Assembly (NCBI RefSeq): GCF_001421415.1 | Contig: NZ_LMKH01000012.1 | Location: 1 to 64,000 of the forward strand | DNA length: 64,000 nucleotides | Direction of reading: 5' to 3' | Source: Sphingomonas sp. Leaf208 | GTDB taxonomy: Bacteria; Pseudomonadota; Alphaproteobacteria; Sphingomonadales; Sphingomonadaceae | Part shown: piece after piece, positions 16,268-63,278 of the stretch | Layout: every line of letters starts with the position of its first letter | How positions within the stretch are numbered: position 1 is the first letter of the stretch | Notes under the pieces: model-generated | The model's database searches: none | What the model was told of the DNA's origin: nothing | What the model saw: only the letters and a program-made list of their open reading frames with translations | Made by a program: the position numbers and the translations under genes

Positions 16268-16377
16268 GCACCTCCCCGGCGAAGGCCGGGGTCCAGTTGG
16301 GTGACGTTGCCAACTCTGCGTTGCCGTTCGTTGCCGCGACCTTTCCAACTGGGCCCCGGCCTCCGCCGGGGTGGTGC
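16268..16377. repeat. Palindromic repeat family C, paired copy
   Basis: The arm CCCCGGCGAAGGCCGGGG TCCAGTTGG is followed by a ~50-nt spacer and its inverted partner CCAACTGGGCCCCGGCCTCC GCCGGGG. This is the normal form of the element; the rest of 16192-16564 shows nothing else convincing except the upstream region of the helicase. Confidence 0.85.
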
Positions 16378-25511: not shown

Positions 25512-25577
25512 GGATAGCTTGTTTTCTCGCGAAGGCGGGAGTCCCGACTGGGCTCCCGCCTTCGCGGGAGAACAAGT
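25512..25577. repeat. Palindromic repeat family B
   Basis: TTGTTTTCTCGCGAAGGCGG G followed by ACTGGGCTCCCGCCTTCGCG GGAGAACAAG. Confidence 0.75.
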
Positions 25578-25597: not shown

Positions 25598-25712
25598 GAG
25601 GCCCCCACCCCGGCGGAGGCCGGGGCCCAGTTGGAGAGGTTGCAGTGATGGAGCGCACCGCGTCCTTACTGAGCACCCCCAACTGGGCCCCGGCCTTCGC
25701 AGGGGTGGGGTA
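25598..25712. repeat. Palindromic repeat family C, paired copy
   Basis: CCCCACCCCGGCGGAGGCCG GGGCCCAGTTGG, a ~65-nt spacer and the inverted CCAACTGGGCCCCGGCCTTC GCAGGGGTGG. With the family B copy it fills the 25417-25742 gap. Confidence 0.8.
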
Positions 25713-60958: not shown

Positions 60959-61843
60959 TCAACCCTTCAACACGCTCAGCAGCGTCTCGCCGAGCAGGCT
61001 GGGGCTTTCCGAGACCTTGATCCCGGCAGCTTCCATCGCCGCGATCTTGCTCTCCGCGTCGCCCTTGCCGCCCGACACGATCGCGCCGGCATGGCCCATG
61101 CGACGGCCCGGAGGCGCCGTACGACCGGCGATGAAGCCTGCCATCGGCTTCGACCGACCGCGCTTGGCTTCGTCGCGAAGGAACTGTGCCGCCTGCTCTT
61201 CTGCGTCGCCGCCGATTTCGCCGATCATGATGATCGACTGGGTCTCGTCGTCGGCGAGGAACAGCTCGAGCACGTCGATGAAGTTCGTGCCGTTGACGGG
61301 ATCGCCACCGATGCCGACCGCTGTCGTCTGACCAAGGCCTGCGTTCGACGTCTGGAACACCGCCTCATAGGTGAGCGTGCCTGAACGGCTGACAACGCCG
61401 ACCGAACCCTTCTTGAAGATCGAGCCCGGCATGATGCCGATCTTGCACTCGCCGGGGGTCAGCACGCCGGGGCAGTTCGGGCCGATCAGGCGCGACTTGG
61501 AGCCCGACAGCGCGCGCTTGACCTTGACCATGTCGAGCACGGGAATGCCCTCGGTGATCGCGACGATCAGCTCGATCTCGGCGTCGATCGCCTCGAGGAT
61601 CGAATCGGCGGCGAAGGGGGGCGGCACGTAGATGACCGACGCGGTCGCGCCGGTCATCGCCTTGGCTTCAGCGACGGTGTTGTAGACCGGGAGGTCGAGG
61701 TGGGTCGTGCCGCCCTTGCCGGGCGTGACGCCGCCGACCATCTGCGTGCCGTACTCCAGCGCCATCTTGGTGTGGAAGCTGCCGGTTTCGCCGGTCATGC
61801 CCTGGGTGATGACCTTGGTGTTCTTGTCGACGAGGATGCTCAT
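60959..61843 (-). CDS. sucD: Succinyl-CoA synthetase alpha subunit
   Basis: Substrate-level phosphorylation from succinyl-CoA. 294 residues with [20 protein letters not shown], the YNTVAEAK region, [20 protein letters not shown] and the phosphohistidine H251 in [20 protein letters not shown]. The start ATG at 61843 gives the usual [12 protein letters not shown]. The beta-subunit gene sucC, often directly upstream, is not in the window: a GIY-YIG gene stands there. Confidence 0.97.
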
Positions 61844-61863: not shown

Positions 61864-61893
61864 CCCCGGCGAAGGCCGGGGTCCAGTTGGGAA
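61864..61893. repeat. Left inverted repeat flanking the GIY-YIG gene (family C arm)
   Basis: 30-nt arm CCCCGGCGAAGGCCGGGG plus TCCAGTTGGGAA; its exact inverse is at 62203-62232. Confidence 0.9.
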
Positions 61894-61898
61894 GGCGG

Positions 61899-62195
61899 TC
61901 ATGGTAACGCGATACGATCGTACAGGTCATCCCAAGCAGGATTGAACCCTTCGATCTCACGCACTTTCCAGGCCCGCTTCCACTCCTTCATTTGCAGCTC
62001 GCGCTGCCGTGCCGCTTCCCATTCACCGCAGGCCTCGTACCAGACGAGGATCTTGCAGCCGTAACGCTTGGTGAAACCGCCGAAACCGTTGCGGTGCTCC
62101 CACACACGCTTTGGCAGGTTTACGGTCGAACCGAGGTAGATCGCACCGTTGGGGAAGTTGGTCATGATGTAGACGAACGCTTGTTCTTCCATCAT
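61899..62195 (-). CDS. GIY-YIG superfamily endonuclease (small, URI-type)
   Basis: 98 residues: [20 protein letters not shown] contains the paired Y-I and Y-L positions of GIY-YIG (VYIM...IYLG), then [20 protein letters not shown] with the catalytic arginine, and the downstream E in [15 protein letters not shown]. It resembles the solitary GIY-YIG proteins that are common in sphingomonads. It is bracketed by identical inverted repeats 6 and 8 nt outside the gene. Cellular role unknown. Confidence 0.88.
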
Positions 62196-62202
62196 TTCGG
62201 CT

Positions 62203-62232
62203 TTCCCAACTGGACCCCGGCCTTCGCCGGGG
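62203..62232. repeat. Right inverted repeat flanking the GIY-YIG gene (family C arm)
   Basis: TTCCCAACTGGACCCCGGCC TTCGCCGGGG, a perfect 30-nt inverse of 61864-61893. Confidence 0.9.

Positions 62233-62270: not shown

Positions 62271-63278
<1,008 letters not shown>

Follow-up and report, generated by a model that had tools for sequence, protein, structure and literature searches.

We propose, with a probability of roughly 0.7, that a short GIY-YIG nuclease gene of Sphingomonas sp. Leaf208 encodes a stationary, selected enzyme that recognises the hairpin of a cognate repetitive extragenic palindrome (REP), termed here REP-A, and acts in trans on the copies of this repeat dispersed over the genome. 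The proposal is drawn from sequence comparisons that started from a window of 64,000 nucleotides, i.e. the whole stretch of DNA that was analysed (contig NZ_LMKH01000012.1, positions 1 to 64,000), in which the gene, referred to as type A, is an open reading frame (ORF) of 98 codons at 61899..62195 on the minus strand. Its two flanking arms, CCCCGGCGAAGGCCGGGGTCCAGTTGGGAA, are identical over 30 nt and inverted with respect to each other, as an earlier sequence-only reading of this DNA had noted. The arm on the 3' side of the gene (61864..61893, plus strand) points its CCA tail toward the gene, and the arm on the 5' side (62203..62232, minus strand), recognised from its sequence and its folding, is the inverted copy. 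The distances to the ORF are 5 and 7 nt rather than the 6 and 8 nt first given. As single-stranded DNA, the 5'-side arm and its 5' neighbours form a hairpin of 8 bp with a loop of 4 nt, after which CCA follows; the 3'-side arm reads as a 7-bp stem plus a G-T pair. Most shuffled controls fold less well than the REP arms. Searched for in the 4.70-Mb genome (39 contigs) with up to 3 mismatches, a 28-nt version of the arm found 273 matches against none for the reversed control pattern, so that a chance origin is excluded; these 273 arms, including the two beside the ORF, constitute the putative target of the enzyme.

Most REP-A copies near the gene are short pairs. Thirteen REP-A sites (at most 5 mismatches) were found in 144 kb of contig C12, 11 of them as pairs with their tails facing inward. 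The spacer measures 30-43 nt in ten of these pairs and 313 nt in the eleventh, where the nuclease gene takes its place, in agreement with the sequence-only reading. That reading had also placed the same arms at 16268 and 25598 with 50-70 nt between them; arm matching located these two geneless pairs at 16274..16371 and 25608..25705, both 98 bp long and without assigned strand, with 42 nt between 28-nt arms. Their membership of the family holds and their identity to the arms around the gene does not (0 and 3 mismatches in 28 for the first pair, 3 and 2 for the second).

The 98-aa protein matches the Pfam GIY-YIG family (PF01541) over residues 6-77 with an E-value of 1.8e-13 and 51 bits (cut-off, 22.6). 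Y9, Y20, G22, R30, E66 and N85, which we take to be the catalytic residues (the GIY Tyr, the YIG Tyr and Gly, and the Arg, Glu and Asn), are invariant across nine aligned sequences. Against solved structures, the single sequence gave weak matches only (E 0.12 and 0.34); a profile of nine sequences matched the UPF0213 proteins 1zg2 (E 1.8e-6) and 1ywl (E 7.7e-4), and also UvrC (1yd6, E 6.5e-4) and SLX1 (6seh, E 3.7e-3). The two UPF0213 entries of the PDB contain the same GIY-YIG domain, and UPF0213 proteins are not known to us to be associated with repeats, no search aimed at this having been made. Purifying selection acts on the type-A gene, the ratio of non-synonymous to synonymous substitution rates (dN/dS) being 0.05-0.26 in 11 comparisons with relatives, and an internal stop within the matched span was seen at one of 70 A loci. 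A remnant of a second GIY-YIG gene was sought in the window by tblastn, G092 and G093 having one about 5.7 kb from their A gene; the known gene was the sole convincing match.

Flanking by inverted repeats recurs throughout the genus, taken here as Sphingomonas in a broad sense, of which 121 genomes, that of Leaf208 (G000) included, were searched with three GIY-YIG proteins of G000 (A, C and D) and five repeat patterns; relatives are labelled G and loci L, followed by a number. At all 30 A-type loci returned by the search (window locus included, two higher-ranking second copies left out), both arms were found within 22 nt of the match at no more than 5 mismatches in 28. With no arm given, the flanks of 150 nt on either side of 190 GIY-YIG loci were then compared de novo for an inverted repeat shared between them. 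The loci comprised 90 returned by the searches and 100 picked from the match lists rather than all matches, and the type of each was that of the best-matching of four G000 proteins (A-D). A repeat with a score of at least 13 flanked 145 of the 190 (A, 67/70; B, 27/51; C, 28/39; D, 23/30). The same score was reached by 9 of 1500 random 300-bp segments of the window and, in three genomes, by 5 of 386 called genes, one of the five being itself a GIY-YIG gene and another being located between two adjacent REP-A pairs; the gene calling for this last control was crude and did not include the type-A genes themselves. Among the 145 flanked loci, 119 had a hairpin of at least 6 bp, 103 had CCA beside the stem and 44 had CGTC 5' of the stem. 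The frequent bracketing of related enzymes by a kind of repeat of their own suggests that GIY-YIG enzymes recognise these repeats and may have helped to spread them.

The association extends to other genera. When named genomes were scanned with three B-type protein queries and the best 80 of 175 relatives were analysed, most of them Sphingomonas and partly overlapping with the genus set, a score of at least 13 was reached in 48 of the 80. These divide into 27/50 with a Sphingomonas title, 18/22 from other named genera and 3/8 with other or unclear titles; the 18/22 are made up of Sphingobium (4/5), Novosphingobium (2/4), Sphingopyxis (2/2), Blastomonas (2/2), Erythrobacteraceae (4/5) and, with 1/1 each, Luteimonas, Dyella, Pseudoxanthomonas and Tistlia. 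Arms of the form CGTCA-stem-TCCA occur in Sphingobium, Novosphingobium, Erythrobacteraceae, Luteimonas and Pseudoxanthomonas; the Tistlia flank differs in look.

Protein and repeat have diverged together. From 135 loci with a score of at least 16, loci without a flanking repeat being excluded, 55 representatives of less than 75% identity were retained for a Mantel test, in which protein and repeat distances were correlated with a Spearman rho of 0.56 (0/2000 permutations as high) and, with type D removed (n=49), of 0.40 (again 0/2000); in this test, recognition between cognate partners is not distinguished from a shared descent of gene and arms. Alternatively, the product of the gene could have some other substrate and the arms, as terminators or mRNA hairpins, could serve to insulate what would be a small selfish or defence gene. 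The folding of the arms relative to most shuffles would fit such a role, as would the shared orientation of the gene and its two neighbours, mdh, the nuclease gene and sucD all lying on the minus strand; in view of the rarity of such arms at called genes and of the variation of arm sequence with protein sequence, we consider this very unlikely.

The genome of Leaf208 contains several such associations. Five Pfam GIY-YIG matches were found in G000, one of which is UvrC as judged by eye (L005, a 659-aa frame); the other four are short domains, each adjoining a repeat family of its own (A, B, C and D). The C gene has REP-C pairs on both sides (30 REP-C matches in the genome), and the D gene has inverted REP-D arms on both sides (7 REP-D matches). 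As to whether other GIY-YIG genes lack the arms, a question raised by the sequence-only reading, the others indeed lack REP-A and each of the short ones has its own REP family instead. With respect to REP-RAYT systems and REPINs, in which REPs are linked to a REP-associated tyrosine transposase (RAYT), the likeness lies in the dispersed inverted hairpin pairs and in a gene bracketed by the same hairpins; here, in contrast, the enzyme belongs to another superfamily and G000 has no Y1/HUH match. The search for Y1_Tnp/RAYT (PF01797) gave no match in G000 at an E-value of up to 0.001, with the control positive in 5 of 14 genomes, and a RAYT was rejected on this ground as the enzyme of REP-A in G000. 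The sequence-only reading had likened the locus to RAYT-REP systems with a GIY-YIG enzyme, a comparison supported by this result and by the recurrence of the link with other arm families and in other named genera.

The mdh and sucD genes, ORFs whose names were assigned by eye, served as synteny markers. The former (malate dehydrogenase; 62271..63233, minus strand) lies upstream of the nuclease gene and the latter (succinyl-CoA synthetase subunit; 60959..61843, minus strand, with its start set at the ATG at position 61843) downstream. Of the 47 close type-A loci (at least 58.5% identical), 38 lie in the gap between these two genes and nine lie elsewhere; the gap also holds 10 of 23 more distant A loci (46-57% identical). 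Because of this synteny and the low dN/dS, we conclude that the gene is mostly inherited in place. Frequent travelling was rejected as its main mode since most close loci share one gap; the sequence-only reading had offered, as one of two options, that the gene travels as a passenger of the repeat. Nor is the frequent relocation of a whole unit that marks insertion sequences apparent, G000 having a single type-A gene. The same reading had asked whether the gene is syntenic in all relatives. It is so in many, and a survey of 30 genomes chosen for having no close A gene, in 28 of which the mdh locus was obtained (loci L246-L273), revealed other occupants of the gap: a type-E GIY-YIG gene about 49-56% identical to A (6/28), 26-121 nt with no GIY-YIG match (9/28) or 474-1129 nt with no GIY-YIG match (13/28). 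The type-E gene mostly adjoins another repeat family; in G095 a REP-A-type arm is found on one side, and in G058, G074 and G017 a clear repeat pair lies only on the 5' side.

These data bear on the possibility of an autonomous mobile element, in which arm, gene and arm would move as a unit, the arms serving as terminal inverted repeats and the 98-bp pairs being internally deleted, non-autonomous copies resembling miniature inverted-repeat transposable elements. Such an element would account for the position of the arms around the gene and for their facing orientation, which is that of the short pairs, for the nine close loci outside the gap, and for a gap in which A and E cassettes alternate or which is short and free of GIY-YIG genes. 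It is at odds with the synteny of the other 38 close loci, with the presence of one type-A gene against 273 arms in G000 and with the nature of GIY-YIG, which is not known to be a transposase domain, and no target-site duplication was visible in the one clean comparison of a filled and an empty site, which concerned a REP-A pair without a gene. We therefore regard it as unlikely.

The repeats themselves turn over. A REP-A pair of G070 has no counterpart at the corresponding position of G000 and G092, the place of the window pair at 16274 is taken in G070 by a REP-C-type pair, and the places corresponding to C12:64471 and 80925 carry pairs of other families in G092. Homologous recombination between REPs might produce this pattern by swapping short cassettes, in which case the nuclease genes would have been captured at a recombination hotspot and would not act on the repeats. 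The replacement of REP pairs by other families at three orthologous intergenic places and in further cases, the variable content of the mdh-sucD gap and the one ordinary gene located between REP-A pairs in G070 all speak for such exchange. What it leaves unexplained is the excess of flanked GIY-YIG genes over flanked called genes and the tracking of protein type by arm type in the Mantel test, and capture without action on the repeats seems quite improbable to us.

Gene and repeat also tend to occur in the same genomes, as judged by p-values that ignore kinship. Of the 43 genomes with an A gene, 38 had at least 10 copies of REP-A, compared with 25 of the 78 without (Fisher test, 1.2e-9), presence being defined by an E-value of at most 1e-36, a limit that was placed after a gap in the match list had been seen. 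For REP-C, the corresponding figures were 10/10 with a C gene (at least 77% identity; one of the ten has a stop) versus 2/111 without (5e-13), and a D gene was found in 25/25 genomes with the REP-D pattern versus 51/96 without it (2.7e-6). Within the 12 REP-C-rich genomes, treated as a single clade without a tree, carriers of the gene hold more copies of the repeat (REP-A, p 0.017; REP-C, p 0.015).

Besides the influence of shared descent on these comparisons, several observations weigh against a cognate nuclease. In the same 12 genomes, REP-E copies number 23-101 with an E gene and 70-94 without (p 0.87). REP-A is present in the absence of an A gene in G058 (243 copies), G061 (157), G074 (49) and G099 (205), four of the 12 genomes, in all of which a type-E GIY-YIG gene occupies the mdh-sucD gap. 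Since G058, G061 and G099 keep REP-A in this way, the repeats outlive or precede the resident gene. The idea that the resident gene sets the copy number was not upheld, as it fails for REP-E and is weakened by these three genomes. No flanking inverted repeat with a score of at least 13 was found at 45 of the 190 GIY-YIG loci, type B being the weakest; in G000, the REP-B pair is located only 5' of the B gene (14 REP-B matches in the genome) and the repeat pairs flanking the C gene share one orientation. Finally, the G070 gene mentioned above, which is not a GIY-YIG gene, also lies between REP-A arms, these being arms of two neighbouring pairs.

The nearest functional model for the REP-A nuclease is the Ssn family. 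Ssn of Neisseria meningitidis, the subject of a paper in Nature Communications in 2025, is reportedly a site-specific single-strand GIY-YIG nuclease with the NTS repeat. The target repeat of Ssn is reported to be present in hundreds of genomic copies, and the likeness consists in a small single-domain GIY-YIG protein and a repeat with hundreds of copies; the Leaf208 system differs in comprising four gene-repeat pairs in one genome, in the inverted arms on both sides of the window gene and in REP pairs with a spacer of about 42 nt. We infer binding, cleavage, a single-strand requirement and mobilisation along the following lines. The 98-aa protein would be a sequence- and structure-specific nuclease with the REP-A hairpin (7-8-bp stem, 4-nt loop, CCA tail) as its target, and every short GIY-YIG type would have a REP family of its own as partner. 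Together with its two arms, the gene would constitute a unit that mostly stays in the mdh-sucD gap, with the dispersed single and paired REP-A copies as substrates in trans. In the most likely mechanism, by analogy with Ssn and with RAYT, the enzyme would nick the hairpin in DNA made single-stranded by replication, repair or DNA uptake, and nicking would promote the copying, exchange or loss of repeats at the nicked sites and, at times, the exchange of the gene cassette. Recognition of the hairpin is the likely part of this scheme; the further step, in which cutting would drive repeat spread, is put forward more tentatively, and the suggestion of the sequence-only reading that the nuclease spreads the repeat is thus plausible rather than proven.

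In Di Nocera et al. (2013; PMC3733652), REPs of the CGTC superfamily are described as dimer-forming repeats with an 8-9-bp stem, a 4-5-nt loop and a CCA tail that predominate in Alphaproteobacteria and seem to have no dedicated transposase; the species listed include S. chlorophenolicum and S. wittichii, the dRS3 element of Neisseria is assigned to CGTC-1, and RAYT is stated to cut single-stranded REP DNA. REP-A shares the 8-bp stem, the 4-nt loop and the CCA directly after the stem, but where the CGTC tag would stand, the two arms of the nuclease gene have CACC and GTCC, and we therefore call REP-A CGTC-like. The tag does appear in same-gap arms of more distant relatives, 55-57% identical (L142, L143, L147 and one arm of L144). 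A further difference is that GIY-YIG genes are bracketed here by such or similar repeats; no link between GIY-YIG genes and REPs was found among the papers listed by literature searches. It is conceivable, at somewhat less than even odds, that the dedicated enzymes missing from the CGTC superfamily are single-domain GIY-YIG nucleases, and that hairpin cutting by an enzyme that is neither HUH nor a transposase multiplied and exchanged the repeats, with several pairs per genome having separate specificities. The association of gene and repeat supplies many CGTC-type families with a candidate enzyme, so that the question of a dedicated enzyme becomes testable with a single short gene and a single oligonucleotide, and several gene-repeat pairs in one cell provide a natural set of possibly separate hairpin-specific nucleases.

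Several further observations were made on related genes and repeats. In G000, the D-type GIY-YIG domain shares its reading frame with a methylase domain of the SpoU type (L001:598-1731, contig C34, minus strand), and the linker between the two reads as a translated REP-D arm. Since 29 of the 30 D loci that the search returned have ORFs of at least 360 aa, such a fusion could be widespread; the domains were checked in the G000 locus alone. A sphingomonad-like GIY-YIG gene with 78% identity to the query is present on a contig labelled Arthrobacter sp. TPD3018 (L281), a label that may be wrong. Although the searches of G000 revealed no E-type gene, REP-E has 83 matches in that genome. Just before the REP-A pair at 25608, at about 25525-25574 of the window, lies an inverted pair that belongs to another hairpin family (CTCCCGCGAAGGCGGGAG type, REP-E-like).
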